Assembly: GCF_003665155.1 (NCBI RefSeq)
Contig: NZ_RCFQ01000028.1
Span: 1-41,559, forward strand
Direction: 5' to 3'
DNA: 41,559 nt
Origin: Mariprofundus sp. EBB-1
GTDB taxonomy: Bacteria > Pseudomonadota > Zetaproteobacteria > Mariprofundales > Mariprofundaceae
Below the pieces are notes generated by a model that searched no databases, had not been told where the DNA came from, and saw nothing but the letters and a program-made list of their open reading frames with translations. The position numbers were made by a program, and so were the translations under genes. Shown piece after piece: positions 1-28,838 of this stretch. Positions within the stretch are counted from its first letter, which is position 1; each line of letters starts with the position of its first letter.

Positions 1-204
1 AACATTGGGATGATGAAGACCAGCCATAAGCTCGATCTCGGAGAGCAGTGCTTCCTTATAGTCATCATCGGTAATCTCTTTGATAGCAACGTGTTTTTGG
101 GAGAACTTCTCAAGAGCTTTGTAAACAACGCCAAAGCTACCGTGACCGAGCTTTGACTCAATCGTATATTTGCCGTTTAAAAAACTACTGCCGAGCTTTA
201 ACAT
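1..204 (-). CDS. Serine/threonine protein kinase, N-terminal fragment cut by window edge
   Basis: Reading leftwards from ATG at 204, 68 residues are visible before the window ends. They show the start of a Hanks-type kinase N-lobe: the glycine-rich nucleotide loop GHGSFGVVYKA (residues 20-30) and the ATP-anchoring lysine in VAIKEI (K42), followed by the alphaC region ending AGLHHPNV. There is no signal peptide, so the kinase domain is cytoplasmic. A strong Shine-Dalgarno (GGAAGGGG) sits 5 bases before the ATG. It lies 31 bases downstream of the small membrane protein gene and closes the minus-strand envelope cluster within this window, so it may phosphorylate or be regulated by products of the neighbouring genes (inference). 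The catalytic loop and any C-terminal sensor lie outside the window. Confidence 0.9.
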   Translation of the reverse strand, partial: MLKLGSSFLNGKYTIESKLGHGSFGVVYKALEKFSQKHVAIKEITDDDYKEALLSEIELMAGLHHPNV

Positions 205-235
205 TTAATCCCCTTCCATTTAAACATCTGTGCAA

Positions 236-862
236 TTACAACAAACCGCCCAGACTCAGGCAACCTGTTGCCACAACCAGCAGCCCAGCTACGGCGCGAA
301 AACCGAAATCATAAATCATACCTGACTGTCTGCCGAAGAAGAGTAGCAATAGAGCTACAAAAACAAATAACCCCACCCGCAGAGCAATAGTTTCAACCGA
401 CGAGTCTTTGACTAAAACCGGACCTTTTTCAAAATTATGTTCGGCGTCCAGTGTCACCGCAACATGGATGCTCCCCATAATACGATTAGTATGAAAGAAC
501 ATGGTATTATCAGGCACTTTCTCGATATATCTAACGGTTAAATCACCCGTCCGGTCATTTTCCTTTTGAAAATACCCCTGTCTGGTCAATGCAGTCAGCA
601 CCACCTCTTCAATACGTTTGGCAATCGAAGGATCAGTAGATGTCCGACCATTGATTTGCACCTTCACTTCAGACATTGCAAAGAAAGGGCGTTGTCCCGT
701 TTTTATATCACCTTCAATTGCTTCAACTACCTGACTGGTCAAAACCCCCTGAGGGCCAAGCAGCTGCATTCGCAGATCATGCACACTCTTTGCTGAAGCA
801 TCTGTAACAGCTACAGATAAGAGAAGAAACAGAAAGGCAATTCGAAGTAAGCTTACTGACAA
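236..862 (-). CDS. Exported protein with two C-terminal membrane helices, unknown function
   Basis: A 208-residue protein with an N-terminal signal-like hydrophobic stretch (about residues 5-23, ending near DASAKS), a periplasmic alpha/beta-looking middle (about 25-150) and two hydrophobic C-terminal segments (about 162-176 and 188-207). I do not recognise the family. The middle part, with a helix like IAKRIEEVVLTAL followed by GYF, is reminiscent of CsgG/LpoB-like envelope folds, but this is only a resemblance. The start is a TTG at 862 that overlaps the last 10 bases of the upstream gene, which suggests translational coupling; no ATG lies nearby in frame. It sits between the carboxypeptidase-regulatory-domain protein and the kinase. 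Confidence 0.75.
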   Translation of the reverse strand: MSVSLLRIAFLFLLLSVAVTDASAKSVHDLRMQLLGPQGVLTSQVVEAIEGDIKTGQRPFFAMSEVKVQINGRTSTDPSIAKRIEEVVLTALTRQGYFQKENDRTGDLTVRYIEKVPDNTMFFHTNRIMGSIHVAVTLDAEHNFEKGPVLVKDSSVETIALRVGLFVFVALLLLFFGRQSGMIYDFGFRAVAGLLVVATGCLSLGGLL

Positions 863-1686
863 CTTACATCACCACGATTGATTCTCCCCGTTTCAGAGAA
901 CCCAGGCAGTGAAATGTTTTTTGAGACATCGAAACCAGTCATGAATGCGTCATATGCACTTTTTGTTTCCTCAAACTTACCATATACCACCACATTGGCT
1001 CCGTATTTCTTACCCAACCGAACCAGTGTACGTTTATCAAAATCTGAATGGTTTTTTCGCTGAGTCTTGATCTCACTGTTGATCGCTTCAGAAATTTTTT
1101 CATCCCTGTTAACCATGCGAATATCTGTAGCGACAGTCATTTTCTGATTCATGTAAGTCATAAATTTAGTCACCACAAATGGCATAGCACAATTGGAAGT
1201 TTCATCCCAGAACACAAACATCATTTTACTGTTTTTATAGCCCTGCTCTTTAACCAGCTTCAGCAAATGGTCGGTCGCTTCTTGTGACCATTTCTTAAGA
1301 CTTACCACTCTTCCACCTTCACGATTTTCCATGCCTACATCAACTTGCTTGGTACCCGAATCAGGTATATTCAATTCCAACTGGTTTTTCAGATAACCTT
1401 TTGCTTTAACGGTCAGTGTTGCCTTGCCAGATCTGATATTTTTAATGGTGTAATCACCATACTCATCCGTTCGAACAACATGCTCCTGATTATCAGCATC
1501 AAGCAACTCAACCTTCGCACCTTCGAGTTGAATCGTATTGTCTTCCCGGTCATGCACTGTGCCGCGTACATTGGAAAAACAATCTTTAAAATATCCACAC
1601 GTCTGGCCCGCCATGGGCATTGCCGTTACCAACAGAGATAATGCCATCGCATATTGTGATATTTTCCTTATCCCGATTTTCATCAT
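853..1686 (-). CDS. Exported carboxypeptidase-regulatory-like domain protein with CsgG/LpoB-like C-terminus
   Basis: A 277-residue exported protein. Residues 1-28 are a signal peptide (cleavage likely after PMAGQ or just before). Residues 38-120 form a carboxypeptidase regulatory-like beta-sandwich: RGTVHDREDN, then GAKVELLDADNQ, TDEYGDYTIKNI and TLTVKAKGYLK follow the family pattern. The C-terminal half (about 130-250) contains a helix and the segment LGKKYGANVVVYGKF, which resembles CsgG/LpoB/FlgO-like domains (inference). Two adjacent ATGs exist (1686 and 1683); GGGAG lies about 7 bases before the first. A 288-base gap separates it from the AsmA/YdbH-like gene, so it may start its own transcript with the 208-residue gene and the kinase. 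Confidence 0.8.
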   Translation of the reverse strand: MMKIGIRKISQYAMALSLLVTAMPMAGQTCGYFKDCFSNVRGTVHDREDNTIQLEGAKVELLDADNQEHVVRTDEYGDYTIKNIRSGKATLTVKAKGYLKNQLELNIPDSGTKQVDVGMENREGGRVVSLKKWSQEATDHLLKLVKEQGYKNSKMMFVFWDETSNCAMPFVVTKFMTYMNQKMTVATDIRMVNRDEKISEAINSEIKTQRKNHSDFDKRTLVRLGKKYGANVVVYGKFEETKSAYDAFMTGFDVSKNISLPGFSETGRINRGDVSCQ

Positions 1687-1919
1687 GACTTACTCCCGAA
1701 ACTTTATTGTTATCCAACACACAGATCGCTACACAGAAAAAGTAACTATTAACACCTTTCCCTGATCATACTCCAAACATATATCATGTATCATTGCTGA
1801 GATAAAACGCGCCTGAACCCCTGCCCTAAGTGATTACATATCGATTTATAGACCAATATCGACATGATAACCACTCTTTTCTCAACAGATTGGAGTGATA
1901 AAAAAGCATAGAGAGCAGC

Positions 1920-1942: not shown

Positions 1943-1974
1943 GGTTCTGGCTTCACCGACCGTTCAATATACCA

Positions 1975-4314
1975 CTATTGCCCAATCAAATGGCCTACGG
2001 ATAGATTGTGAATCGGGATATGCATTTTACTGCCACCACTTGATTTTAGCACCACATCAACATCGGCATATTGATTTTGCAGCCTTGCATCGGTTGAGGA
2101 AGGCGCATAATGATATTTTTCCATCATCTGCTTTATATTTTGCAATGATGCTTTAGTTGCATCCGGGTCAAGCCAATCAATCAAATGATCCAAACTCTGA
2201 CGCTGAATATCAGGTACACTCAAGCGACCCGAGAGATCCCTGCCATCACTTTTTATGGTCGCATAGATATTTAATCGACTTGCTTCAGCCTGCCAATCGG
2301 GGTTGAGCCGAGCGCTATCAGCATGCAGCAACGAGAAACGTGCAAAAGCTTTGGGAAAAGACATCTCTTTGTCTGGTATGGAGAGCTGAAAATAACCGGA
2401 CACATTACCATCTAAAAATTTTCCCTGCTCCACTTTACCCAACAGTAGACCATCATCGAATTGCATCGCTAACTGTGAATCCGTCAGCTCAAAACCTTCC
2501 ATGGCCAGTAATTTAAAACTTAACGAACCGGGCAGCGATTTAGTTGAAACACGGCTCAGATCTGCACCATTCATCATGCGCCCCCTCTTCAAACTAAAGT
2601 CTGATAAATTCAACTGCTGTCTGAACGGCAAATCAAGCTCTCCACCCTGTAGATTCAAACCGTTAAGGTTCAAATTAAATTTTGAGACATTCATCTTACT
2701 CTGCAAATATACCTTGTCTGAACCACGCCCCTCAGACTTCCACTTCACTCTCCCTTCCCCCTCCATATCGGGCAGAAAATCACTCCAATACTTCAGCGCT
2801 GCCAGACTGCCCACTGACAGAGAGCCTTGCATCCGGCTTGAGCGATGGGCCAAACCACTATCATGCAGTGTGCCCTGAATTGTAGCATTCACTTCGCCCT
2901 CTATTAGCGTTAGATTCAGAGTAGTGAACTCGGTTCGATCAGACTGACGTATCCCTGTTGAGTCCAGGTGTCCAACCAATGCGGGCATACCCTGAATCGC
3001 AACATCAACATCGGCCGAAGTTTGCCAGTCAAGCTTTTTCAGATCGCTTAAATCCAATGTAGTCCGGGATAGTGTCAAAAGGTATTTCCCTGCTCTAAGC
3101 TGCTCTCCTGCTATGCTCGTCGACTCATCACCTATCAGCTTGATATCTGCCTTGCCCAGTATCACGCGGTCATTATCAATCTTTAGCGAATCAGCCATAA
3201 AATCAGCCAGCCACCGTTTCTCACCTAGCTTTATCAAACTGTTCATATCAAAATTATTAAGGGCCATTCCCCCACTCTCTGCAACACTCAGACCACCACG
3301 TAAATGACCAGTGAACTGAATTTCTTCAGGTATTGTGATTCCCCAAGTTTGTGGATCGGGTATCGAAAGTTTGAGTGCGAGATCATCACTCTCCAGCAGG
3401 GATATCTTATTCTGCATGCGCCATTTCACCGGACCGGTAAGCTCAGCAACACCATCATTTGCCGTTTTCAGCAGGAGCAGTTTTAAGAGCAAAGTAGCCT
3501 CATTAATACCATACCTGAAATCATCGGCATCTAGCTCAACATGCTGGAAACGGGAGAGCTGGGGAGCTAATTCTGCTAACAGATGTATATAGGGATCGAC
3601 ATCACTCTTTACTAAAATATGAGTAATCGACACATCAGGTTGAGAGAAAATCGCTTCTATCTGTAAACCTGTAACCATGAGCTCCGTCGCCTCATTTTTT
3701 ATAGCCAGTTCGGGCATATCTAAACGCCCTTGTGACAAGGCAAGACTGAATACAGTTTGCACAGAGCCGGTTAAAGGTTCCTGTTGTTCATCCTCTTGCC
3801 ACTGCCCTTGCCCCTGCAGTGAAACGTTAATCATTTCCTGTTTAGCATGAACAACCAGTTCAACAGAGCCCTTATAACTGCCCCGACCTGCCTCAATGTG
3901 CATCATATCAATATGTGAACGTTCGGGAATCAGGGCAAGTAAGCTCGGATCAATGGACATTGTATCTATTGATGCGTCCTTATTGGCATCAAACATTGAG
4001 GCATCAACAGAAAACATGGCTTCTGCCACATGCAGATCACCCACAAGCAGGTAAGATATATCTGTTAAATCAACGCCAGCACCATTTTTCTCCAGATGCA
4101 TATAATCAACCGCAATACCATCCCACCAACTGAATGCAGTCACTTCCCCATAAGAGAGAACTAGACCTTGCTGTTGTGCATAAGAGAGGATTTCTTGGCG
4201 AACGCGTTCATTGTTTAAACATGTTTTGGTAAACAGCAATGGAACAAGGAAGAGAAATAACAGTGGCAAAAACCACCACCATTTTTTTAATCGAACTGTT
4301 TTTTTCTCAACCAA
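1975..4314 (-). CDS. AsmA/YdbH-like large envelope protein
   Basis: A 779-residue protein with one N-terminal membrane helix (about residues 11-30, rich in F, L and P, after KKWWW) followed by about 740 residues of alternating beta-strand-like sequence with no enzymatic motif. The size, single anchor and many repeats of short strands resemble AsmA-like proteins such as YdbH, which bridge inner and outer membranes and are implicated in phospholipid transport. The assignment to YdbH specifically is inference. It reads from TTG at 4314; an in-frame stop lies five codons upstream and there is no clear Shine-Dalgarno, so the start rests only on the anchor beginning directly after it. It follows the FecR gene by 38 bases and is probably in the same transcript. 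Confidence 0.65.
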   Translation of the reverse strand: MVEKKTVRLKKWWWFLPLLFLFLVPLLFTKTCLNNERVRQEILSYAQQQGLVLSYGEVTAFSWWDGIAVDYMHLEKNGAGVDLTDISYLLVGDLHVAEAMFSVDASMFDANKDASIDTMSIDPSLLALIPERSHIDMMHIEAGRGSYKGSVELVVHAKQEMINVSLQGQGQWQEDEQQEPLTGSVQTVFSLALSQGRLDMPELAIKNEATELMVTGLQIEAIFSQPDVSITHILVKSDVDPYIHLLAELAPQLSRFQHVELDADDFRYGINEATLLLKLLLLKTANDGVAELTGPVKWRMQNKISLLESDDLALKLSIPDPQTWGITIPEEIQFTGHLRGGLSVAESGGMALNNFDMNSLIKLGEKRWLADFMADSLKIDNDRVILGKADIKLIGDESTSIAGEQLRAGKYLLTLSRTTLDLSDLKKLDWQTSADVDVAIQGMPALVGHLDSTGIRQSDRTEFTTLNLTLIEGEVNATIQGTLHDSGLAHRSSRMQGSLSVGSLAALKYWSDFLPDMEGEGRVKWKSEGRGSDKVYLQSKMNVSKFNLNLNGLNLQGGELDLPFRQQLNLSDFSLKRGRMMNGADLSRVSTKSLPGSLSFKLLAMEGFELTDSQLAMQFDDGLLLGKVEQGKFLDGNVSGYFQLSIPDKEMSFPKAFARFSLLHADSARLNPDWQAEASRLNIYATIKSDGRDLSGRLSVPDIQRQSLDHLIDWLDPDATKASLQNIKQMMEKYHYAPSSTDARLQNQYADVDVVLKSSGGSKMHIPIHNLSVGHLIGQ

Positions 4315-4352: not shown

Positions 4353-5105
4353 TCAATGCCGCTGTATTGCCTGGCTCCACTCATCCCAGTGAACCTGTTG
4401 ACGCTCGCTTTTATCAATGTCATGCACCTGCCATGAACCATCTTTAGATATAACAATCTGCTGCATCGCTTTAATAATCTGCATCCACTCTTTCAGTGTA
4501 ACCTCTTTCGGCCCTTGTACCTCATGTGGCCCTGCTATTTCTACAGGTTCATTCACATGTCGTGTGTTCATCTCCTGCTGCAATGAAGGCCGCACGGTTG
4601 TTTGTAATTGTTGTTCACCACTAACTTCTACAGCTCCCCGGTAAACATTCAGGGTCGCACTGTTTTTATCTGCATGCAGACTGAATATTGTGCCACGTAC
4701 CGTGGCATGAGCCAGTTTATTGCTCACCTCAAAAGAGGAGTCTTCATCCAGCTTCTCGATCTCAGCCCAGAGGTCACCTTCCATCAGATCAAGCTCGCTT
4801 ACCTTTTTTTCACCCTCTTCAAATACCCGCTGAAAATCAACGGTAGTTTCAGGCCCCAGTCGAATTTTCTGCGTTTCATGGATGACGATCTCTGCCAGAG
4901 ATTTCTCAAAAGTACGTACCCGCTCACCGGTAATCACCTTTTCCTGCTCTTTTAACCCTTTCCAATGCCCAGCAACAGAACGTTTATTTGCTTCACCCTT
5001 AATAATGGTAACCAGGCCATTGTTATCTTCAGCAATGGCAAGCCCTGAAAAACCGATTAACAGTGACATCAGTGCAATAACTATAAATTTGCTACGACAT
5101 TGCAT
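4353..5105 (-). CDS. Periplasmic FecR-domain protein
   Basis: A 250-residue protein with a signal peptide (about residues 1-25, ending SGLAIA). The FecR core is clear: GERVRTFEKSLAEIVI, then IRLGPETTVDF, LMEGDLWAEI, a VSNKLAHATVRGTIFSL segment, and NVYRGAVEVS (about residues 58-165). Classical FecR is an inner-membrane anti-sigma protein with a cytoplasmic N-terminus. This one lacks that N-terminal region and is simply exported, as in the FecR-domain proteins that accompany TPR and caspase-like proteins. The C-terminus has a helix (KEWMQIIKAMQQIV) of unknown role. GGAG lies 9 bases before the ATG. It follows the TPR gene by 18 bases in an apparent four-gene operon (LPP20 protein, TPR, FecR, AsmA/YdbH-like). 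No sigma factor gene is near. Confidence 0.88.
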   Translation of the reverse strand: MQCRSKFIVIALMSLLIGFSGLAIAEDNNGLVTIIKGEANKRSVAGHWKGLKEQEKVITGERVRTFEKSLAEIVIHETQKIRLGPETTVDFQRVFEEGEKKVSELDLMEGDLWAEIEKLDEDSSFEVSNKLAHATVRGTIFSLHADKNSATLNVYRGAVEVSGEQQLQTTVRPSLQQEMNTRHVNEPVEIAGPHEVQGPKEVTLKEWMQIIKAMQQIVISKDGSWQVHDIDKSERQQVHWDEWSQAIQRH

Positions 5106-5123: not shown

Positions 5124-5858
5124 TCAGGTTTGTTTTGTCTCAAGCAGTTCCAGGCTACGTAGCAACACCTTCAAATCCTCTTCCCGCACTACAAATTCTG
5201 TCAATACTTTACCTACTGTATCTACGTCGTGATTCTTTGATAGCATAAACTGTAAACATTTATTGATCGACTCCTGTTCCATCTCGATCACATGAGACTC
5301 CAGGATACGTACCACATCATCATAATCCTGTTGCACATAACTGCGTTTCGCCTGATGCCAGCGCCACTTCCTCAGAAAATAACGCCAGATAGAATTAAAC
5401 GAGGTGCCCAACCAGATGCTCAGTACAAACACGATCAAATCACCTATTTTATCTTTCATAATACTATCCCACTCTTGAGCCTCCTCGCTCTCAGTGAGTG
5501 TTCTTACCCGTCGAATATGTTCTATAAAGCTTTGTGCCATCCTATTTTCAGGATTAAAGGAAAGAGCATCCATCAAATATGTTTCAGAAAGATCTTTGTT
5601 GCCTGTGAAATAGAGTGATTTTCCATATAGTGCTGCAAGCATCGAATTCTCAGGGAAAAGAATAATCGCTCGAGACAACAACTGATTGGCGTGATCATAC
5701 TCTCCATAATCGATAAACTTCCCTCCTCCCACGACAGCTCTATTCTCATTTTTCAAATACTTTTCTAAATCCCCCTCAGACAATACCTCAGCATGCGCAA
5801 TTGAGCTGAGGCATAACAAAACAAACAGCCCCACAAAATAGATTAACCTATTCACCAT
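5124..5858 (-). CDS. TPR-like membrane protein
   Basis: About 244 residues. An N-terminal signal sequence ends near SSIAHA. Residues about 45-115 contain TPR-like helices (YGEYDHANQLLSRAIILFPEN, then LYFTGNKDLSETYLMDALSFNPEN). A central membrane helix (about IGDLIVFVLSIWLGTSF) is followed by a basic cytoplasmic-looking stretch (RYFLRKWRWHQAKRSY) and a helical tail. I chose the ATG at 5858; a TTG two codons upstream is also in frame. The start lies three bases beyond the stop of the LPP20 gene, so translation is probably coupled. It likely acts as a periplasmic scaffold joined to a small cytoplasmic domain, next to the FecR protein. Confidence 0.75.
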   Translation of the reverse strand: MVNRLIYFVGLFVLLCLSSIAHAEVLSEGDLEKYLKNENRAVVGGGKFIDYGEYDHANQLLSRAIILFPENSMLAALYGKSLYFTGNKDLSETYLMDALSFNPENRMAQSFIEHIRRVRTLTESEEAQEWDSIMKDKIGDLIVFVLSIWLGTSFNSIWRYFLRKWRWHQAKRSYVQQDYDDVVRILESHVIEMEQESINKCLQFMLSKNHDVDTVGKVLTEFVVREEDLKVLLRSLELLETKQT

Positions 5859-5860
5859 GA

Positions 5861-6871
5861 TCAATCAGCCAACACAATCATAATCTTGGCCTTTTTATCC
5901 AAACCACCTTGTTGAATCACTGCGACGAATCGTTTTACGCCAGCCTCATCAAGCACCAAATCAGAGCGTTTAGATTTGTACGTCGAAGTGGCTTTAATCA
6001 CCAAAGGTTTATTGGCAACCCGGTCGCTCGTCATTGCATCGTTCACATTCATTTCGTAGGAGAATGGCATTCGATTTCGAACCACCTCATATGTAGTATT
6101 TTTGTTAGGATATAATTTTCTACCTTCATGATCCCGTATCAAAGGCAACATCGCTGCACTAAAAGTTGGTAGGTGAGATGCATCAATTACAATTCCGGTA
6201 AAGCCACTGACCTCTTCGTATGCCCTGATTGCGCTTTGCATTAACGTAGAAGCGAGCTGATCTCCTTTTTCAGAAAAAGTTTCCATCAATTGTTTAGCCA
6301 GCTTCAACTGCGAATCATCTTCAATCTTTATCTCCGGCACAATTCCAGCATGAGCCTCTCCAACTAAACCATACTCAGCCAAATAGCTAGCCAGCTCTTG
6401 CATTCGTTCAGAGAAATCAACCTTGCTAGACCTATTATCTCCCACTCTTTTATAATATTCTTCTTCAGAGATTAATGCTGAAAACATTTGGCCCGCAACA
6501 GGCATCACAAGTCTCACTTCGCATGATCCATCAGACATCAAACTGCGGTTTTCTTCACGGGCTCCTTTCACCAATCCCTTTACAGCCGACCGAATAAGAT
6601 CACTCTCTACCATCGCATCTTTGACCAACGTAACACTATCGACCCGAACCCCTTGGGAGGTCTCCAGCAGATTGCGCAATGCATCTAGTTTAGCGGCTCT
6701 ACAAGCCAGAGCATTTCCCTGGGCCTTGCTGATAGCACGCTCAGGAGGCACACCAATACCAATTGCTGATATTTCGCCACGCTTCCAGTCCATGCCCGTC
6801 ATTTGTTCTGCAGAGCTTATCGATGAACCCATCATCATTAATAAAAATAACGCCAAAATACTTTTCATCAT
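5861..6871 (-). CDS. LPP20-domain exported protein with C-terminal GIVIDA domain (paralogue B)
   Basis: A 336-residue exported protein with a signal peptide ending near ISSAEQ. Residues 28-130 match the LPP20 type: DWKRGEISAIGIGVPPER, ACRAAKLDALRNLLETSQG, then VTLVKDAMVESDLI and DGSCEVRL. After a helical linker, a C-terminal domain of about 105 residues (TGIVIDAS to KIMIVLAD) matches the C-termini of the paralogues at 18613, 21741 and 11770. LPP20-like domains occur in outer-membrane-associated proteins and flagellar FlgT; no enzymatic role is evident. Start codons at 6871 and 6868 are both possible; GGGAG suits the second slightly better. A promoter candidate lies just upstream. It is the first gene of an LPP20-TPR-FecR-AsmA operon. 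Confidence 0.8.
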   Translation of the reverse strand: MMKSILALFLLMMMGSSISSAEQMTGMDWKRGEISAIGIGVPPERAISKAQGNALACRAAKLDALRNLLETSQGVRVDSVTLVKDAMVESDLIRSAVKGLVKGAREENRSLMSDGSCEVRLVMPVAGQMFSALISEEEYYKRVGDNRSSKVDFSERMQELASYLAEYGLVGEAHAGIVPEIKIEDDSQLKLAKQLMETFSEKGDQLASTLMQSAIRAYEEVSGFTGIVIDASHLPTFSAAMLPLIRDHEGRKLYPNKNTTYEVVRNRMPFSYEMNVNDAMTSDRVANKPLVIKATSTYKSKRSDLVLDEAGVKRFVAVIQQGGLDKKAKIMIVLAD

Positions 6872-6894
6872 TTCACTCCCATCGAAGGACCTTT

Positions 6895-6922
6895 AATATA
6901 GACAATATCTTTTAAACATCAA
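6895..6922 (-). promoter_or_regulatory. Sigma70-like promoter candidate for the LPP20-TPR-FecR operon
   Basis: On the minus strand, TTGATG (6922-6917) and TATATT (6900-6895) are separated by 16 bases, about 24 bases before the first start codon. Spacing is one short of ideal and the -35 box matches 4 of 6 consensus bases. Confidence 0.45.
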
Positions 6923-6971
6923 TTCAAGCTAAAAATCAGAAACTTAGACAACAGGCTCAACATGGCAAAAG

Positions 6972-6994
6972 ATACCTGCTAACAGGACAAAAAT
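6972..6994 (-). promoter_or_regulatory. Copy 2 of the 23-base extragenic element
   Basis: Positions 6972-6994 read ATACCT, seven variable bases, GGACAAAAAT on the plus strand, 19 of 23 identical to 1920-1942 with no gaps. It lies 22 bases past the stop of the small lipoprotein gene and about 50 bases upstream of the -35 box of the LPP20 operon promoter. That placement suits an upstream activator site or a 3'-end element. Confidence 0.4.
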
Positions 6995-7016
6995 AGAAAA
7001 CTTTATTTCAGCAGCA

Positions 7017-7514
7017 CTATCCGCTCGGTTGCTCAACGGTATCACATGCAAACATGTAGCCGGGGAGTTGCTCAGCCAACATGTCAGCTGAAATAGTATA
7101 GCTCTGCAGGCTCATCTGCTCATCAACCAAACGTGCTTTACCATCACGTACCGTAGCCTGACAGATTGAAGTGATTTGAACTGGAGGGGAAAAATCACTA
7201 TTTTTCGTTCGAAATTCATACAAATCACTCACACCCGACTTCGCTCCCAGTCTCACATGCTCCAAAGCACCGGCACATATATCCTGAGCATCTGCGTGGC
7301 TGACTCGTGACGCCATCACCGCCCAGCGCTGAGCCGATATATTCGCCGGTTTTATCGCCTTGCCTGTAAGATGCAACACCCCATCAGCACAAGAGATAAA
7401 TGCCTTATCATAAGATGGAATTAGATCATCATGAACTATTTCTCCCTGTTGATCGGAGCAAGCAATTAACGGTAGCGTCAGTAGCAATGAGAAAAGTGTT
7501 TTCATCTTATTCAT
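7017..7514 (-). CDS. Small lipoprotein, unknown function
   Basis: A 165-residue protein with a lipoprotein signal: LTLPLIAC places the lipid-modified cysteine at residue 19, followed by SDQQ, so Lol sorting to the outer membrane is expected (no Asp at +2). The mature part has several cysteines (near residues 42, 80, 116 and 157) that could form disulfides in the periplasm. I do not recognise a family. Its ATG shares one base with the stop of hepT (TAATG), so it is translated from the same message as the caspase-mntA-hepT genes. Why a lipoprotein follows a toxin-antitoxin pair is unclear; it may belong with the caspase upstream. Confidence 0.75.
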   Translation of the reverse strand: MNKMKTLFSLLLTLPLIACSDQQGEIVHDDLIPSYDKAFISCADGVLHLTGKAIKPANISAQRWAVMASRVSHADAQDICAGALEHVRLGAKSGVSDLYEFRTKNSDFSPPVQITSICQATVRDGKARLVDEQMSLQSYTISADMLAEQLPGYMFACDTVEQPSG

Positions 7515-11609: not shown

Positions 11610-11769
11610 GTATTCACTTCCTTGTTTCACTGCAATCGATACACAGGATTATCTTGCCCGTTGTGATAATCAACGGCTCCTGCTCATGCCCCAAAACCTT
11701 TGGCGATCTGTTTGGATTCTGTTTTGGAATAATTTCCCAGTTCAACCTGGCTTACCTTCATCACGCCGA

Positions 11770-13079: not shown

Positions 13080-13152
13080 CATATCCTCCCATGAGCCCCG
13101 CCAACAATCAGTTTAGCACCCCAAAGTGTCACATCTTACTTTTAATCTGTTA

Positions 13153-18543: not shown

Positions 18544-18586
18544 AAACTCTCCTAATACATCTATCACAATACCCTGTCAATGACGA

Positions 18587-18604
18587 TGTAGTTTGTAAAC
18601 TACA
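18587..18604. repeat. Short perfect palindrome between two operon genes
   Basis: TGTAGTTT and AAACTACA form a perfect 8-bp inverted repeat with a 2-base centre, in the 69-base gap between the LPP20 stop (18613) and the giant caspase start (18543). The centre is too short for a stable RNA loop, so a protein-binding site is more likely than a terminator. Confidence 0.4.
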
Positions 18605-18612
18605 GCAACGAT

Positions 18613-21509: not shown

Positions 21510-21539
21510 GAACCCTCCCTTTTTAATTGTATATCCAAC

Positions 21540-21568
21540 TTTATAGACGAAAACAGCACCTTTGCCAA
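21540..21568 (-). promoter_or_regulatory. Strong sigma70-like promoter for the caspase operon
   Basis: On the minus strand TTGGCA (21568-21563) and TATAAA (21545-21540) are separated by exactly 17 bases, with 30 bases from the -10 box to the ATG at 21509. Both boxes are near consensus. This is the best promoter in the window and probably drives the GNA1162-like, LPP20 and giant caspase genes. Confidence 0.65.
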
Positions 21569-21587
21569 CACTCTGCACATACAAAGA

Positions 21588-21635
21588 GACAAAAATGGTA
21601 TAAACAAGAAGCCTTTCGGTGATACCATTTTTGTC
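21588..21635. promoter_or_regulatory. Perfect 14-bp inverted repeat in the divergent control region
   Basis: GACAAAAATGGTAT (21588-21601) is repeated as its exact reverse complement at 21622-21635, with 20 bases between. The arm core is the GACAAAAAT of the elements at 1920 and 6972. It starts 19 bases upstream of the -35 box of the minus-strand promoter, in the gap shared with the plus-strand gene at 21741, so it is well placed for a regulator controlling both arms. It lacks a U-tract and neither flanking gene ends here, so it is not a terminator. Confidence 0.6.
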
Positions 21636-21740
21636 CGGTGTCACCCCATAATACAGCTATTCCGCACTTGAACTATTGCCAGTATTAAATTAGAAAGTCT
21701 TAGTCTATACTGAATAAAACCTTACAGGGAGAGGATTCAT

Positions 21741-22616
21741 ATGAAAATAAAACATCAATTTATTGCCAGCTTGGCATTATCCACAGCCTTATCGATATTC
21801 GCTGTGAATGCTACAGCAGAGCCATATATGGATAGCTTTCAGAACGCAGATCATAAAAACATTGGAAACTTAAACTGGGGCAGTGGTGAGATTAATGCCA
21901 TTGGGTACGGTGTAGTCCCACCACGATATGCCAATCAACCTGCTCGTGGCCGTGCTATGGCTATTCGCGCAGCAAAGGTTGATGCACAGCGTAATCTGTT
22001 AGAGATCGTTATGGGTACCAGCATCAAATCAAAAACATTAGTCAAAGATAATGTTACTGAAGGTGATGCTATTCACGGCCAGTTAAGAAGTTCAGTTCTA
22101 CGCAACGCATCGGTCGTTGGTAAACCCCATTATATGGATGATGGACTGGTAGAAGTAACCATGGCAATTAATTACCGTCAGGACATTGCCACCACCCTAC
22201 TGGAAAATTATGGCACCAAAGTAGATCGCAATAGAGTCACGTCGATGCCACAAGCAAAAACGTCGCATGCTGCACCATCAGAAAAAGCATCCCCTGTATC
22301 TGGTCTTATCATTGATGCCTCTGGCAAGGGGTTAAGGACCGCCCTGCATCCCCGTATTCTTGATGAGAAACATCACGTAATCTATTCAGGTTCGATGGTT
22401 AGCGCTGACAAGCAGAATAATATTGTTGCCTATGATAATTCTGCCTCCGATGCATCTAAATTACCTCGCCTTGGCCAACGTACGCTAACCATTAAAGCCT
22501 TGAAAATTCTGGATAAAACAGATGTTATCATCAGCAACGATGATGCAGCAAAAATCGGACAGGCCGCAGGTATGGCTGACACCTTGCATCAGGCTCGCGT
22601 CGCTTTTGTTTTATAA
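21741..22616 (+). CDS. LPP20-domain exported protein with C-terminal GLIIDA domain (paralogue D)
   Basis: A 291-residue exported protein with a signal peptide ending near VNATAE. The LPP20-type domain reads LNWGSGEINAIGYGVVPPR, RAAKVDAQRNLLEIVMG, SKTLVKDNVTEGDAI. A low-complexity linker (about 165-185) leads to a GLIIDASG domain that resembles the second copy in the 412-residue protein most closely (LRTALxPRILDE shared). AGGGAGAGG precedes the ATG. A -10-like TATACT lies at 21706-21711 with no good -35, which would suit activator control from the inverted repeat upstream. It is the first gene of the plus-strand arm. Confidence 0.8.
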   Translation: MKIKHQFIASLALSTALSIFAVNATAEPYMDSFQNADHKNIGNLNWGSGEINAIGYGVVPPRYANQPARGRAMAIRAAKVDAQRNLLEIVMGTSIKSKTLVKDNVTEGDAIHGQLRSSVLRNASVVGKPHYMDDGLVEVTMAINYRQDIATTLLENYGTKVDRNRVTSMPQAKTSHAAPSEKASPVSGLIIDASGKGLRTALHPRILDEKHHVIYSGSMVSADKQNNIVAYDNSASDASKLPRLGQRTLTIKALKILDKTDVIISNDDAAKIGQAAGMADTLHQARVAFVL

Positions 22617-22750: not shown

Positions 22751-23824
22751 ATGAAAAAAATCATTCTCGCAACCAGCCTCTGCCTCATGATGACTGGCTT
22801 AGCACATGCCTCATCGCTTGATTCTTCAGCACATCACAATAAAGCAGCCGAACGATATGTTGCACAAAAGCAGTTTACCAAAGCACTGACAGAATATGAT
22901 ATAGCCATTAAGAAAGATAAAAAAAGTGCTCAGGCCTGGCTGGGAAAAGCTCAGATTCAATTGCAACTAAAGCAGTACTCTGCACTAAAGGGTACGCTTG
23001 AAGAACTGGATGATGTCAGCAATTCCAAAGCTGAGAAATTCGAGTTCCTGCTCGTTGAAGGACAATATTATCTTGCTGCCAAACCAAATCACTGGCTTAG
23101 TAAGCTAAAACAGAACTTCTTCAAGGCCAGAAACATGGATACTTCTCGCAGCGATCTCTACCTGTTGATGGCACGCGCTTCAGTCGCCGGTGGCAAAGAG
23201 AGATCTGCACGCCTGAACTACAATAAAGTTATTGAACGTGGCGGTCCACTTGCTGCCGTAGCCTCTCAGGAACTGGCCTCCATTTTCCGACAGGCTCAAG
23301 CCAGTGGTACAGGCAAGGGTTGGGTTGGCGATTTAGCGGACAGGGCAACGATTGACCGTGCCACACTCGCAGCGGTTTTGGTTGATGATATCGAAGTACA
23401 GCAACTGTTCGATAAACGAAGCCGCACTATTGCCCTGCCTTCAGACTGCAAAGGCAACACATATTCAGCCGCCATTGATACACTTCTGAATATTCAAATC
23501 ACCAGTGTCGCTCCCGACACAAAAGGTTTATTCAATCCGAATGCCAATGTCAGCCGATTTGAGCTAGCCAAATTGGTTGAAGAGATTCTGATTGCTTATA
23601 CCAAAAAAGAGGAGCTCTCGCATGCTTTTATGGGCACAAAGAGCCCGTTCCCGGATCTTAACGCCAACCACTACGCCTATAATGCCGCATTTCTATCAAT
23701 CTCACGTGGTTTGATGGCCACGGATGATCTGGTTGAAGGCAATTTCTCAGGCGATAAAGCAATCTCTGGTACTGATCTTCTCTTGGTACTACGTAAATTG
23801 GGAAGCCTGGAGCGCCAGCAGTGA
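22751..23824 (+). CDS. Exported TPR protein with SLH-like C-terminus
   Basis: A 357-residue exported protein with a signal peptide ending near LAHASS. Residues about 28-185 hold TPR repeats (YVAQKQFTKALTEYDIAIKK, AQAWLGKAQIQLQLKQY). The C-terminal half resembles S-layer homology repeats: NPNANVSRFELAKLVEEIL, then FPDLNANHYAYNAAFLSISRG and a final ISGTDLLLVLRKL. SLH domains bind cell-wall polymers; in Gram-negatives they occur in some periplasmic and outer-membrane proteins. AAGGAGA precedes the ATG. The stop overlaps the GTG of the transglycosylase gene (GTGA), so both may act on the same peptidoglycan region. Confidence 0.78.
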   Translation: MKKIILATSLCLMMTGLAHASSLDSSAHHNKAAERYVAQKQFTKALTEYDIAIKKDKKSAQAWLGKAQIQLQLKQYSALKGTLEELDDVSNSKAEKFEFLLVEGQYYLAAKPNHWLSKLKQNFFKARNMDTSRSDLYLLMARASVAGGKERSARLNYNKVIERGGPLAAVASQELASIFRQAQASGTGKGWVGDLADRATIDRATLAAVLVDDIEVQQLFDKRSRTIALPSDCKGNTYSAAIDTLLNIQITSVAPDTKGLFNPNANVSRFELAKLVEEILIAYTKKEELSHAFMGTKSPFPDLNANHYAYNAAFLSISRGLMATDDLVEGNFSGDKAISGTDLLLVLRKLGSLERQQ

Positions 23825-25041
23825 AACGGGCTATAGCGCTCATAATTCTAGGGCTTTCAATCGCCAGCCCTATGCCTCTAAGTCATGCTGATGATTTTGA
23901 TAACGCGAATCAATCCTCTGACGATGCCTTTGCTGAAATAGATAATATGTGGGATGATGCATCAAAGGATATAGATAATTCATGGCAAACATATAGCGAT
24001 GAAATAGATCAAGCATGGAATCGCTATGCTGCAGAAATAGATGCAGCCTGGGGTAAAGAGAATAGTAAAACCCCTTCAAAAAAAGAGTGGGTTGAATATT
24101 CCGAAAAACGCGATGCACGCAGCAGTATCGATTTTGAAAAAGGTGAACTGCAGGTAGATATCATACTTGAACCCGGTGAATTACCTGAATCCATGCAGGT
24201 AAAAGAACGCATTCAGAAACGCCTTGAACTGGTTATTACTGAACCGGCCAGGGAAGATCCCGCCTTGAAAGTGACTCCGCCTTTTGATCTTGATATCACG
24301 GATACAGCCACTGCGGATATCCATCCATTAAAAGGACAACTCAAACTCTCTAATGGGGAAACCGTCACACAAAAAAGTGCCTCAAAATTTGCCAAAGAGG
24401 TTATTAAATCACAACCAATTAAAAGCAAAATAATCCAGACCCCTAAAGGAAAGAAACAGGTAGTGTCTGTCTCTGTTGCATTGATTGCTGATCATGTCAA
24501 AAAGCGTGCAATGCCTTATCTAAAACGCGTAAAAGAGATGGCGCAACGCTATAACATCCCTCCTTCACTGATCTTCGGCATTATGCAAACCGAGAGCTAT
24601 TTCAATCCCATGTCCCGCTCGCATGTACCTGCCTATGGGCTGATGCAATTGGTACCCCGCTCCGGTGGCTTGGATGCTTATGAATATGTATTCAAAGAGA
24701 AGAAAATTCTATCGGCTGATTACCTCTACAATGCAGAAAACAATATTGAATTGGGCAGCGCCTATCTAAAGCTGTTGCAGGTGCGTGAAATGCGTCGCAT
24801 CAAGGATGCAAAAACCCGCATGCTATGTGCGATTGCAGCCTACAACACCGGCGGTGGCAATGTGGCCAAGGCATTTATTCCCGGCAGCCGCAGCATCAAA
24901 AAAGCCTCTGCCATTATCAACACGATGACCTATGAGCAGGTCTATGAACATCTGCGCGCCCATCTCCCCTATGAGGAGACCCAGCGTTATGTCATGAAAG
25001 TACGCAAACACATGAAAAACTTTGCCCGATTGGATTCATAA
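23821..25041 (+). CDS. MltC-like lytic murein transglycosylase
   Basis: A 406-residue exported protein starting at GTG 23821. The C-terminal SLT domain (about 232-400) has the catalytic glutamate E258 in FGIMQTESYFNP, the AYGLMQLVP motif and AAYNTGGGNVAKAF. The middle region (about 105-225) fits the MltC N-terminal domain (DUF3393 type). It would cleave the glycan strand to 1,6-anhydro products in the periplasm. MltC is a lipoprotein in enterobacteria; this protein has a signal peptide (to about HADDF) but no lipobox. Between signal and domain is a four-unit 11-residue repeat. The GTGA overlap couples it to the TPR-SLH gene. Confidence 0.88.
   Translation: MKRAIALIILGLSIASPMPLSHADDFDNANQSSDDAFAEIDNMWDDASKDIDNSWQTYSDEIDQAWNRYAAEIDAAWGKENSKTPSKKEWVEYSEKRDARSSIDFEKGELQVDIILEPGELPESMQVKERIQKRLELVITEPAREDPALKVTPPFDLDITDTATADIHPLKGQLKLSNGETVTQKSASKFAKEVIKSQPIKSKIIQTPKGKKQVVSVSVALIADHVKKRAMPYLKRVKEMAQRYNIPPSLIFGIMQTESYFNPMSRSHVPAYGLMQLVPRSGGLDAYEYVFKEKKILSADYLYNAENNIELGSAYLKLLQVREMRRIKDAKTRMLCAIAAYNTGGGNVAKAFIPGSRSIKKASAIINTMTYEQVYEHLRAHLPYEETQRYVMKVRKHMKNFARLDS
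23929..24060 (+). repeat. Four 33-base coding repeats: an 11-residue helix repeat with Trp at a fixed position
   Basis: Residues 37-80 of the transglycosylase divide into FAEIDNMWDDA, SKDIDNSWQTY, SDEIDQAWNRY and AAEIDAAWGKE. Isoleucine-aspartate and tryptophan recur exactly every 11 residues. An 11-residue period fits a long right-handed or straight amphipathic helix, so the Trp face could bind membrane or another helix. Confidence 0.8.
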
Positions 25042-25099: not shown

Positions 25100-27373
25100 A
25101 TGAATAATCACTGGATTGCACTTGGACTAATCACTGTACTGCTTACAGGATGTATGAATACCGCTAAAAAAACCATCAGTGACTTGGGCGAACGATCCTA
25201 TTCCTCGCTAGGCGAATGGGATCATGCTCAGCTATGCCGCGCCTATAAGGAAGCCATGAAAGTAGATCAGTTCTACGAATGTGCCGATAACCTCATGAAT
25301 CGAGAGATAACTGGCGGACCTTACTGGGATGAGATCGGCATAAAATCTTATACTGCATATGCGATGGCTGAAATTGATCTGGCTAAAAACGATTACAAGG
25401 CGGTCATAAAACATGCCTCTACCGCGATATCTCTATATGAACAAGGTAAAGAAGAGTATGGAGAACAAGTAGATATAATGAAATTAATGGAAACAGACTC
25501 ATTTGTCATCAAAGCAAAAGCATACGTTCGATTGAACAACAAACAGCAAGCATTGAAAACTATGGACGAACTCGAATCAATTTTTCGGGAGAGTTACTAT
25601 GTTTTCACAAGGCGAGCAAAAGGTGAGATTTATCTAGAAATCGGAGATTATGAGAAAGCTGTTCACTATCTGGAATGGGCTGGTACAAGGATTCCAGATG
25701 CATTGATTGCAAATGCGGTTAACCCCTGGGCTTATGTATTTGAAGGTGTAGACGCAAACTACAACAAAAGAAACATTGCCAAAATAAAGGCCTCTTACCC
25801 TTTAGCAAAAGCCTATCTTGAATCAGGAAGAATTGAAAAAGCAAAGATAGCCTATGAAAAGCTGTTGGAATTATATTCGGGGTTAACAGATGTATCGGAA
25901 TCCTGGGAACTGCTGTTTGACTGGGCAAGAGTTTCAATTGCAAAGGGCGACCGCACGAGTGCATCTGAAACATTAAAAAAAGCTGTAACTGCAATTGAAA
26001 CGAATCGCGCCACCATGGCATCTGAAAAAAGCAAAATGAGTTTTATCGGCAGAAAACTGGATGCATATGCCCTTCTGGTCCAGCTGCTCATGGATCAAAA
26101 ACAATATGATGAGGCCTTTGCCTATGCCGAGCGGGGTAAAGCGCGCGCTTTGATCGATATCCTAGCTAGCAAGAAGCAGTTTGATGGTGGTGATGTAACC
26201 AGCGTATCGGAGCAGAATAAGCTGCTAGCTCAGCTAGATACTGCCGAGGCCAAAGCACATGTATTGAGTGGTAATAAAGATCAACAATCCAACAGCCGTA
26301 GCGTGGCGATCCATGCAAGAAATGCTTTAGTTCAACAGGCTCCTGAACTTTCATCCCTTGTGACAGTGAAAGCACCTGACGTAAAAGAGATTCAATCTCT
26401 CTTACCAGCTGGTGAAACCTTGATCGAATACTATGGGTCAGGAGATGATCTATTTGCCTTTATTGTAACCGCAGATGGCATTCGTGGTGTGAAACTGAAT
26501 GGTAAAGGGTTACAGACTGATGTAACTGCATTCAGGGCGGCTATTCTTGATACGAAGGGCAAGAGTTACCAGCAGAGCGGTAATCGTCTCTACAACCGTC
26601 TGATTGCGCCTGTGATATCAGGGATCAATACAGCGAACCTCACCATTGTTCCGCATGGTGCATTGCACTATCTCCCCTTCTCAGCTCTCACCAGTGCCAA
26701 AGGTTTTCTGATTGATCAGTACAACATTCGCATTTTACCTTCGGCATCTGTGATGAAATTCCTAAAACATAATAATAACAAGGCGGGCACACTACTGGCC
26801 TTCGGCAACCCTGACTTGGGTAATGCCAAATACGATCTACCATTTGCCCAGAAGGAAGCGGAGATGATTGCCGGTAAAACAGCAGGCGCGAAACTGTTGG
26901 TCAGAGGCCAGGCCACCGAAACAGCGGTGAAATCTTACGGTAACAGCTTCCGTTATCTCCACTTTGCCTCCCACGGTACATTTGATGCCGAGAAACCGTT
27001 GCAGTCCGGGCTGCTACTAGCAAAAGATGATCAAAACGATGGCATGCTTACTGTTGGCGAACTCTACGATCTCAACCTCAACGCTGATCTGGTTACGCTG
27101 TCCGCTTGTGAAACAGCACTCGGCAAGGTTGCCAACGGTGATGATGTGGTTGGATTCACAAGAGGCTTTCTCTACGCCGGAGCCAGTTCCATCGTTTCCA
27201 GCTTGTGGCAGGTGGATGACGCCGCCACCTCTGATCTTATGACCGGCTTCTATGCTAATCTGGGCAAGACAGATAAGCGTTCAGCTCTCAGAAATGCCCA
27301 GCTATCCACCAAAGCCAAGTACCATCATCCCTACTACTGGGCAGCATTTCAAATTACGGGGGCTCTGCAATAA
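25100..27373 (+). CDS. CHAT-domain protease lipoprotein with TPR repeats
   Basis: A 757-residue lipoprotein; LLTGC18 is the lipobox. Residues about 45-400 are TPR-like helices (YIAL-type repeats such as AKAYLESGRIEKAKIAYEKLL and AEIDLAKNDYKAVIKHA). Residues about 430-757 are a CHAT domain, a caspase-like cysteine protease: His625 in LHFASHGTF and Cys670 in VTLSACETALG, with the WQVDD and PYYWAAF family features at the C-terminus. Both catalytic residues are intact. CHAT-TPR proteins are usually cytoplasmic; the lipobox with +2 Met predicts outer-membrane anchoring, facing the periplasm. It follows the transglycosylase gene by 58 bases, with a GAGAG ribosome-binding site. Confidence 0.93.
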   Translation: MNNHWIALGLITVLLTGCMNTAKKTISDLGERSYSSLGEWDHAQLCRAYKEAMKVDQFYECADNLMNREITGGPYWDEIGIKSYTAYAMAEIDLAKNDYKAVIKHASTAISLYEQGKEEYGEQVDIMKLMETDSFVIKAKAYVRLNNKQQALKTMDELESIFRESYYVFTRRAKGEIYLEIGDYEKAVHYLEWAGTRIPDALIANAVNPWAYVFEGVDANYNKRNIAKIKASYPLAKAYLESGRIEKAKIAYEKLLELYSGLTDVSESWELLFDWARVSIAKGDRTSASETLKKAVTAIETNRATMASEKSKMSFIGRKLDAYALLVQLLMDQKQYDEAFAYAERGKARALIDILASKKQFDGGDVTSVSEQNKLLAQLDTAEAKAHVLSGNKDQQSNSRSVAIHARNALVQQAPELSSLVTVKAPDVKEIQSLLPAGETLIEYYGSGDDLFAFIVTADGIRGVKLNGKGLQTDVTAFRAAILDTKGKSYQQSGNRLYNRLIAPVISGINTANLTIVPHGALHYLPFSALTSAKGFLIDQYNIRILPSASVMKFLKHNNNKAGTLLAFGNPDLGNAKYDLPFAQKEAEMIAGKTAGAKLLVRGQATETAVKSYGNSFRYLHFASHGTFDAEKPLQSGLLLAKDDQNDGMLTVGELYDLNLNADLVTLSACETALGKVANGDDVVGFTRGFLYAGASSIVSSLWQVDDAATSDLMTGFYANLGKTDKRSALRNAQLSTKAKYHHPYYWAAFQITGALQ

Positions 27374-27459
27374 TAAGATTATCCAAAGTAAAAAATTGAC
27401 CAACAACAAAAAAGCACGCAGTTTTAGCTGAAAATAATGAATGTAAGCGGGAGATGTAT

Positions 27460-27696
27460 GTGCCCACAGTATTGAGAATAGGAGCATATCGTTTTTTCTT
27501 CTATAGCAATGAAACGGGTGAACCTCCGCATATACATATCCAGCGAGACCGTGCATTGGCAAAGTTTTGGTTGAATCAGATTTCATTAGCCAGCTCAACG
27601 AGTTTTCCTCCGAAAGAAATTCGTGAGCTGCAGAGACTTGTTGAACAGAATAAAGCTGAATTATTGGAGGCATGGAATGAACACTTTAGCAATTGA
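27460..27696 (+). CDS. DUF4160 protein, putative toxin-antitoxin partner
   Basis: A 78-residue protein that matches the DUF4160 pattern throughout: MPTVLRIGAYRFFFYSNE, PPHIHIQRD, AKFWLNQISLA, LLEAWNEHF. I chose the GTG at 27460 (GGGAG six bases upstream) because the family usually starts at MPTVLRIG; an ATG two codons earlier is too close to the Shine-Dalgarno. The next gene starts 20 bases before this one ends. DUF4160 and DUF2442 genes are often found as such overlapping pairs and are suspected toxin-antitoxin modules; the biochemical role is not established here. Confidence 0.85.
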   Translation: MPTVLRIGAYRFFFYSNETGEPPHIHIQRDRALAKFWLNQISLASSTSFPPKEIRELQRLVEQNKAELLEAWNEHFSN

Positions 27697-27922
27697 AGTA
27701 CATCCCGCAGCTGAGACAGTACATTTTTCCGAATCTGAGCTTATGGTAACTCTGGCAGATGGACGAACAATTTCAGTACCCATTGCATGGTTCTCAAGTT
27801 TGTCCAATGCGACAGAACAAGAACTTCATAACTATGAACTACTGGGTAATGGCGAGGGCATCCATTGGCCACAACTAGATGAAGATTTAAGCGTAAAAGG
27901 TTTATTGCTTGGTTTTCATTAA
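27677..27922 (+). CDS. DUF2442 protein, partner of DUF4160
   Basis: An 81-residue protein with the DUF2442 core: ADGRTISVPIAWFSSL, ATEQELHNYELLGNGEGIHW, LDEDLSVKGLLLG. ATG at 27677 has GGAGG at ideal spacing; the frame extends upstream inside the DUF4160 gene but that part is not family-like. The family is thought to include DNA-binding or antitoxin partners. The pair separates the CHAT gene from the next LPP20-DUF4384 gene, so it is a probable insertion into the operon. Confidence 0.85.
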   Translation: MNTLAIEVHPAAETVHFSESELMVTLADGRTISVPIAWFSSLSNATEQELHNYELLGNGEGIHWPQLDEDLSVKGLLLGFH

Positions 27923-27956
27923 CGGCTGAATTAACACTGCAATCTGAGAGGCAATC

Positions 27957-28838
27957 ATGAAGAGATTATCACTATTAATATTATTAACCTTCGGGTTTAT
28001 CCCCTTCTCCTACGCTACTGGTCAATCTACCATTGTAGAGGCTGAAGGCATTGCCTGCACCAGTCCAAATACCACTCGCATTCAGGCTGATGGGTTAGCC
28101 TTAACCAATGCCAAACGCGATGCGTCCGAAAAGGCTGGCACCCACCTCGAATCATCAACGCTTGTCAAAGATGCCGAGGTACAGGCTGATCTTATCAAAT
28201 CATTTTCCAATGCTCAGGTTAAATTGATCACACGACTTAGCGAAGAGTGGGAACAGTCCGGAAAAATGGATTATTGCCTGCAATTGCGAATCCGCGCTGA
28301 AGTTGTACCCGACCCGGTTATCATGAAAAAGGTAGAGGCAAAAATTGTTAATGATCCCACGGCACCGCTCAATGTGAAAATATGGGTAGACAAAAAGAAT
28401 AAGGTTTATAAGCAAGGCGAAGTGGTACACATTTATTTACAAGGCAACAAACCATTCTTTGGCAGACTTGTTTATGGAGATGCAGCCAAAAATAATATTC
28501 AGCTCCTGCCTAATCCTTACCGCAAAGACAACTATTTTAAAGGTGGAGTTATGTACGAAATTCCGGAGGGACATGATCGCTTTGAAATGGAGGTAACCCC
28601 ACCTTTTGGCAATGAGACAATCACTGTCTATGCCAGCACATCACCATCCGGTGATTTACATCTGAAAGATGCTGGTAGCGTTTACCTGGTAACCACGGCA
28701 CCAAAGGATATCAAAACTAAAACCCGCGGCATTAAGATTAATGAGGTAGGCTCCCCTACAGGATCATCTTCAAGACCATCTCACCAGCGTCCCACCGAAT
28801 TCGCTGAAACCTCAGTAGAGTTGCGCACAACAAATTAA
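27957..28838 (+). CDS. Exported LPP20-like protein with DUF4384 domain (paralogue E)
   Basis: A 293-residue exported protein with a signal peptide ending near FSYATG. The N-terminal region is LPP20-like (AEGIACTSPNTTRI, NAKRDASEKAGTHLESSTLVKD). Residues about 135-245 match DUF4384 (PLNVKIWVDKKNKVYKQGE, VHIYLQGNKPFFGRLVY, PEGHDRFEMEVTPPFG, ETITVYAST). DUF4384 commonly accompanies caspase-like, CHAT and kinase proteins at the envelope. GAGAGG precedes the ATG. It replaces the GLIIDA domain of its paralogues with DUF4384, so the LPP20 part appears to be the common module of this locus. It is the last gene of the plus-strand arm. Confidence 0.85.
   Translation: MKRLSLLILLTFGFIPFSYATGQSTIVEAEGIACTSPNTTRIQADGLALTNAKRDASEKAGTHLESSTLVKDAEVQADLIKSFSNAQVKLITRLSEEWEQSGKMDYCLQLRIRAEVVPDPVIMKKVEAKIVNDPTAPLNVKIWVDKKNKVYKQGEVVHIYLQGNKPFFGRLVYGDAAKNNIQLLPNPYRKDNYFKGGVMYEIPEGHDRFEMEVTPPFGNETITVYASTSPSGDLHLKDAGSVYLVTTAPKDIKTKTRGIKINEVGSPTGSSSRPSHQRPTEFAETSVELRTTN

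Follow-up and report, generated by a model that had tools for sequence, protein, structure and literature searches.

The DNA analyzed here, the 41,559-nucleotide contig NZ_RCFQ01000028.1 of Mariprofundus sp. EBB-1 (Zetaproteobacteria; assembly GCF_003665155.1; hereafter, the window), spans the whole of contig C21 in a 2.88 Mb genome of 63 contigs, with an estimated completeness of 99.5%. It harbors a cluster of genes for predicted envelope proteins arranged in two arms that diverge between positions 21644 and 21741 (Table 1). These include several LPP20-like proteins, a lipoprotein in which a GNA1162 domain is fused to FnIII and a beta-helix (GNA1162bh), and three caspase-fold proteases, two with C14 domains and one with a CHAT domain. 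The FecR, TPR, TPR/SLH, lytic transglycosylase and GNA1162-like genes named in a first-pass annotation of the sequence were all found, by sequence and Pfam. Comparison with other genomes tells apart a conserved, apparently undescribed envelope module from the lineage-specific proteases attached to it; literature searches on the domain combinations yielded no published description of this gene cluster.

A conserved core of envelope genes

Relatives of GNA1162bh were sought in 61, later 78 genomes, and an LPP20 profile was run over 398 evenly drawn Pseudomonadota for clusters outside Zetaproteobacteria. GNA1162bh is immediately followed by LPP20d, one of the LPP20-like proteins, in all 10 genomes where the pair was found (11 loci, several families), and LPP20e, TPR/SLH, FecR and a lytic transglycosylase recur around the pair, which supports, for this core, the original idea of a single machine with the shared LPP20 module as its hallmark. 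Close full-length GNA1162bh is present in only four zetaproteobacterial genomes of those searched, and a scan of genome contigs for GNA1162bh named a single close locus, in a Mariprofundales metagenome-assembled genome. LPP20d was not found in a plasmid search.

One strand of G039 carries, in this order, lipoprotein, 2007-aa TPR/PD40-CHAT, LPP20e, TPR/SLH, SLT, a 326-aa open reading frame (ORF), FecR, GNA1162bh, LPP20d, FecR and AsmA-like protein. In G038, the order from LPP20e to the AsmA-like gene is the same on a single contig, with a 774-aa TPR protein replacing the 326-aa ORF, and the giant CHAT gene and its lipoprotein are on another contig. In the genome of the window, these two genes are on contig C27, adjoining another LPP20 and CHAT gene. 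G005, from the same genus as the window, carries TPR-TM, LPP20a, LPP20d, GNA1162bh and a FlgT-like gene, and G021 carries LPP20e, TPR/SLH, SLT and a CsgG-like gene. The LPP20 profile detected six clusters outside Zetaproteobacteria (G138, G159, G162, G168, G204 and G207), with the gene content LPP20-DUF4384, TPR/SLH, LPP20e, SpoIID, GNA1162bh, LPP20d and FecR, where LPP20-DUF4384, SpoIID and FecR are not present in all; the fetched flanks of these clusters contain no C14 or CHAT gene. Looser relatives are G041 (TPR/SLH, LPP20, FlgT-like, FecR, a protein that by eye is CHASE2-like, and SpoIID) and G048 (SLT, LPP20 and FlgT-like, beside a kinase).

LPP20e and TPR/SLH are linked in the window and in G021, G038, G039, G138, G159, G162, G168 and G207. 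Most clusters that are complete enough encode a lytic transglycosylase, which is SLT in Zetaproteobacteria and SpoIID in G138, G162, G204 and G207; such substitution between unrelated enzymes that share an activity argues for a need for wall cleavage. Judging from gene order, GNA1162bh and LPP20d are a fixed pair, the predicted wall-cleaving enzyme is recurrent but exchangeable, and the proteases are lineage-specific. Distant homologs of GNA1162bh (about 30% identity; G114, G120, G183, G186, G210 and G216) were rejected as members of the module, being devoid of LPP20 neighbors and located in other gene contexts. At L280, L281 and L285, such homologs adjoin proteins that by eye resemble FHA-domain proteins.

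The GNA1162 domain of GNA1162bh scores 51.2 bits against a cut-off of 25.9 and matches the solved GNA1162 structure (4hrv, 1.7e-11), and the lipobox cysteine, C72, is invariant. The domain and the lipobox are shared with the neisserial GNA1162, CsgG and LpoB lipoproteins, from which GNA1162bh differs by the fusion to FnIII and the beta-helix and by its gene cluster. The transglycosylase of the window contains SLT and Mltc_N domains above the Pfam cut-offs and resembles MltC, with SpoIID in the equivalent place elsewhere; unlike MltC, it falls below the NCBIfam equivalog cut-off (198.7 vs 375 bits) and is dedicated to this cluster.

The LPP20-like proteins are related to Tp0624

Four of the six LPP20 paralogs originally reported are complete (LPP20a, LPP20d, LPP20e and LPP20-DUF4384), whereas LPP20c consists of the N-terminal module only and LPP20b was recognized only via its C-terminal module. 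In LPP20c, the likely signal peptide (13481-13600) is seemingly out of frame, suggestive of a pseudogene or a base error. The complete copies carry Sec type I-like signals without a lipobox cysteine. None of these proteins passes the Pfam LPP20 (PF02169) cut-off (best score 18.9 vs 25.9 bits), and the kinship to LPP20 was established instead by profile and fold. The first half of a profile built from 11 copies matches FlgP (8z5n, 3.7e-7) and the Campylobacter jejuni motor scaffold (9hmf, 1.4e-14), and the second half matches Tp0624 of Treponema pallidum (5jir, 1.5e-10). A usable fold model was obtained for one protein only, LPP20d (mean predicted local distance difference test score, pLDDT, 61; residues 88-114 below 50). 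The model matches Tp0624 with Z 12.7 over 185 residues, well above the next-ranked matches and with both domains aligned, and also Helicobacter pylori Lpp20 (5ok8; Z 7.4) and FlgT (Z 5.6); Foldseek aligns LPP20d with Tp0624 over 318 columns (2e-6). Given these profile and fold matches, the common module is a two-part Tp0624-like protein, with an FlgP/Lpp20-like N-terminal half and a C-terminal half similar to Tp0624 domain 2, rather than an LPP20 lipoprotein. Domain 2 of Tp0624 has been described as lacking a structural analog (PMC5104382); these matches place it in a family and give it a genomic setting beyond the spirochaetes.

LPP20d ends after the second domain and lacks the OmpA-like third domain of Tp0624, the counterpart of which is found in the window only within the separate TPR-OmpA-WD40-C14 protein; furthermore, the two-domain proteins form several paralogs here. 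The N-terminal module, of the SHS2-like family by profile and fold, and the outer-membrane or periplasmic partners are shared with FlgO, FlgP and FlgT and with the basal-disk proteins of Campylobacter and Helicobacter (FlgP, Lpp20). In contrast to these, the LPP20-like proteins of the window are not lipidated, carry the added Tp0624-like C-terminal module, and are encoded in a cluster without flagellar genes. Identification of the locus as a flagellar cluster was rejected, with no flagellar genes in the window.

Three apparently exported caspase-fold proteases

The two C14 domains score 78.6 and 55.6 bits against the Pfam cut-off of 21.4, and their His and Cys occupy the same alignment columns as in the 41 of the 48 aligned C14 domains that retain both residues; a PDB sequence search with the two domains produced no match. 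The CHAT domain scores 247.7 bits against a cut-off of 24, and its His and Cys coincide, when aligned, with the corresponding residues in Csx29, the TPR-CHAT partner of Cas7-11 (7zoq/7y9x). By sequence, both C14 proteins carry Sec signal peptides and the CHAT protein carries a lipobox, LLTGC. All three proteases thus appear to be exported and catalytically plausible, in agreement with the first-pass annotation.

The same annotation started from the picture of such proteases as studied mostly in the cytoplasm, against which export would be unusual. This premise finds no support in the sampled Pseudomonadota, where a signal-peptide-like start was detected in 40 of the 46 complete C14 ORFs and 30 of the 34 CHAT ORFs in the search of relatives, compared to 51 of 196 control ORFs (minimum length 250 aa). 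The rule used is a simple heuristic that permits alternative starts, and the counts as such are therefore approximate, but the difference from the controls is large. The CHAT protein of the window is itself missed by this rule for want of a basic residue, yet its lipobox is clear. Already in 2012, a survey of prokaryotic caspase homologs noted N-terminal helices, probably or possibly signal peptides, in part of these proteins (PMC3501461). Most caspase-fold proteases of Pseudomonadota thus carry apparent export signals, contrary to their usual picture as cytoplasmic enzymes of death or defense. One contig of G041 (C108; L201 6293-13308) contains four tandem C14 caspase genes, each with a signal-peptide-like start.

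The C14 proteins resemble prokaryotic metacaspases and orthocaspases in the p20 domain with the His/Cys pair, and WD40 repeats and export-like N-terminal helices have been reported in that group (Asplund-Samuelsson et al. 2012, PMC3501461); what differs is the combination of TPR, OmpA, WD40 and C14 in a single chain and its location in an envelope cluster. The CHAT protein shares with Csx29 of Craspase the TPR-CHAT layout and the aligned catalytic residues but belongs to a type with a lipobox or signal peptide, envelope neighbors and no CRISPR genes. Craspase was rejected, as the ORFs of the window with Pfam annotation include no Cas7-11 gene and the NCBIfam Csx29 score is 58.8 vs 300 bits. 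A defense system was not favored as the principal explanation; a PADLOC scan confined to the three caspase-fold enzymes, the HepT/MNT genes and the Fic protein gave weak caspase and MotB-like matches, along with candidate-type models for MNT and Fic.

Both C14 genes of this genome are in the window, and three further CHAT genes are outside it. Contig C27 (L017 1-10443), which begins inside a transposase-like ORF, contains a second envelope locus that encodes LPP20, a TPR-CHAT lipoprotein, a lipoprotein and a 1959-aa TPR/PD40-CHAT protein. A third short TPR-CHAT paralog is encoded on contig C41 (L114 3-2384); by eye, the CHAT domains of C21, C27 and C41 are nearly identical, and the N-terminal parts differ.

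Linkage of the proteases to the module

In G005, LPP20a (L100 1072-2100) and LPP20d (2164-3174) are separated by 63 bp, compared to 11.7 kb in the window, where the interval is filled by a block containing both C14 genes, LPP20b, LPP20c, the HepT/MNT pair and a lipoprotein gene. The block is absent from G005, G038, G039 and all six non-zetaproteobacterial clusters. Because G038 and G039 also lack it, the simplest reading of this distribution is a gain in the lineage of the window, the alternative being a loss in G005. Genus-wide, C14 genes are present in 3 of 23 genomes, and in the two other cases they are on contigs without module genes. The OmpA-C14 protein matches plasmid genes over part of its length only.

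Outside the window, an LPP20-type neighbor was found at 1 of about 35 C14 loci (G041:C48, with LPP20-DUF4384 directly upstream) and in none of 20 control regions. Together with LPP20-DUF4384 beside the CHAT gene in the window, this case suggests that a functional tie between proteases and LPP20 is possible, although not general. The giant exported CHAT is joined to the module only in Zetaproteobacteria. The first-pass annotation placed all three proteases in one machine and named as its own refutation a scattering of the proteases away from the LPP20 and lipoprotein genes in related genomes. For C14, this scattering is largely what is observed, and the LPP20-lipoprotein core stays linked; the single machine, as far as it included the three proteases, is not upheld.

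Possible roles of the module

The explanation that we favor, by a small measure over its negation, is that the envelope module is present in the window as an expanded copy, with a core that is a peptidoglycan-anchored outer-membrane scaffold or ring and with the proteases as accessories. This core comprises the outer-membrane lipoprotein GNA1162bh, exported LPP20d and LPP20e, the TPR/SLH protein, one or more FecR proteins and a dedicated lytic transglycosylase. The linkage of these genes, their domains, their export signals and the kinship of folds are observed, and from them we infer how the assembly would be built and what it would do. The transglycosylase would open the wall locally, anchoring to the wall would be provided by the TPR/SLH and FecR (and OmpA) parts, and a ring or plug at the membrane would be made up of the SHS2-type LPP20 proteins together with the GNA1162 protein, which is CsgG/LpoB-like. 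CHAT would have been added to the module in Zetaproteobacteria, and the two C14 genes would have been added in the lineage of the window; the proteases are probably involved in periplasmic processing or quality control, their WD40/TPR platforms binding substrates or signals. FlgP builds the Campylobacter outer-membrane basal disk, and FlgT forms outer-membrane-associated rings (PMC12222027).

Several considerations weigh against the scaffold explanation. The proposed assembly is pieced together from parts and linkage; model confidence is middling for LPP20d and poor for GNA1162bh (pLDDT 46), so that the latter contributes no fold evidence; and ring-forming FlgP requires a beta-hairpin insert. 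In G159, the interval from LPP20e to GNA1162bh contains no transglycosylase gene. Many of the relatives are fragmented metagenome-assembled genomes, so some neighbors not seen in G005, G168 and G204 may lie past contig ends. Finally, the linkage of CHAT and the module extends across the zetaproteobacterial order, so that CHAT may be integral there rather than accessory. The giant CHAT, along with the two caspases in this genome, could even sense the periplasmic state via its TPR/propeller part and cleave LPP20 or transglycosylase partners, switching peptidoglycan opening; this scenario, which would amount to a caspase-type circuit operating outside the cytoplasm, we consider unlikely.

If the cluster were instead a single periplasmic protease network, the three caspase-fold enzymes, the LPP20-like proteins and the peptidoglycan proteins would work as one machine, for example, to sense envelope stress and respond with proteolysis and lysis of the wall. 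The shared location and orientation of the genes in this genome, the export signals of all three enzymes, the position of LPP20-DUF4384 just upstream of a C14 gene in G041:C48, from an unrelated family, and the giant exported TPR-CHAT beside LPP20e in G039 and beside the CHAT/LPP20 pair on contig C27 are all compatible with such a network. However, the distribution of the C14 block described above, the lack of CHAT in the six non-zetaproteobacterial clusters and the near absence of LPP20-type neighbors at other C14 loci (about 1 in 35) make it improbable. A somewhat better, albeit still doubtful, candidate is an apparatus for export or assembly of a surface structure, with a CsgG-like pore, an accessory ring, the transglycosylase making room and the proteases trimming cargo. 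Rings of this kind have structural relatives in GNA1162 and FlgT-like proteins, CsgG/LpoB-type proteins are encoded beside the module in G021 and G138, and glycan genes are located nearby in the window, at 33-41 kb. These glycan genes, however, are not conserved beside the module in relatives, and the module lacks a recognized conserved cargo gene, outer-membrane beta-barrel or secretion ATPase.

The least probable of the explanations considered is a chance pile-up, without joint function, of fast-duplicating exported genes (LPP20, CHAT and kinase copies) in a repeat-rich region. The three occurrences of the kinase start, the CHAT paralogs on C21, C27 and C41, the transposase-like ORFs at contig ends and the apparently broken LPP20c all fit this possibility, but the order of the core genes is kept in further families and orders within Pseudomonadota, which is not expected by chance. 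For the core, a pile-up is thus contradicted; for the C14 block, it is still possible.

Other features of the window

Table 1 Annotated features of the window (positions in nucleotides)
Feature	Positions	Strand	Comment
Ser/Thr kinase, N-terminal 68 codons	1..204	-	glycine-rich loop; cut by contig end
CarboxypepD_reg + LpoB-like exported protein	853..1686	-	CarboxypepD_reg 1.9e-12; LpoB 22.2 bits, slightly below cut-off
AsmA-like membrane-anchored protein	1975..4314	-	labeled by eye, no Pfam match of its own; homologs at same place in G038/G039
FecR-domain exported protein	4353..5105	-	core module in G038/G039, beside LPP20d
TPR + membrane helix protein (TPR-TM)	5124..5864	-	common to G005
LPP20a	5861..6871	-	N module FlgP-like; C module like Tp0624 domain 2 (D2)
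Block holding both C14 caspases	6872..18612	-	missing in congener G005 (LPP20a-LPP20d interval) and in G038/G039
HepT/MNT toxin-antitoxin pair	7514..8358	-	MNT start codon overlaps stop codon of WD40-C14 gene; embedded in caspase operon
Exported WD40-C14 caspase	8355..11630	-	Peptidase_C14 E 7e-22; His/Cys intact
LPP20b	11770..13020	-	C module Tp0624-D2-like; N part divergent
LPP20c	13160..13540	-	N module; likely signal peptide in other frame
Exported TPR-OmpA-WD40-C14 caspase	13606..18567	-	1653 residues; OmpA 1e-20, C14 8e-15; His/Cys intact
LPP20d	18613..19623	-	core; directly downstream of GNA1162bh
GNA1162bh lipoprotein (C72)	19620..21644	-	core; likely true start near 21506
LPP20e	21741..22616	+	core
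TPR/SLH exported protein	22751..23824	+	core; SLH 18.4 bits, under its 20.8 cut-off
MltC-like SLT lytic transglycosylase	23821..25041	+	core in Zetaproteobacteria; SpoIID in this position elsewhere
TPR-CHAT lipoprotein	25100..27373	+	CHAT 2e-73; His/Cys intact; close paralogs on contigs C27, C41
LPP20-DUF4384	27957..28838	+	beside module in G159/G162/G207; beside a C14 gene in G041

The two arms had been described as lying around one control region. The divergence is confirmed, and, because GNA1162bh probably starts near M47, the gap between the arms is about 230 bp; promoter-like and terminator-like sites in a scan of that region are no more frequent than expected by chance. The reported Ser/Thr kinase gene is present as well, but only as its beginning, because the window is a whole contig that ends there. 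Contigs C47 and C49 carry further copies of this kinase start with 87% identity (L015 1-942; L016 1-204), so that it occurs at three places, two of them at contig ends; therefore, the genome apparently contains multiple copies of the kinase at which the assembly breaks. On contig C49, the kinase is in a row with an LPP20/FlgT-like protein, a PP2C-like phosphatase and a TPR protein.

To the right of the cluster, a short membrane-anchored M48-type peptidase (30665-31216) is encoded near a response regulator and the Fic protein. The remainder of the window (32972-41559) is a glycan cluster with genes for GT2, acyltransferase, MBOAT, sulfotransferase and WbsX proteins.

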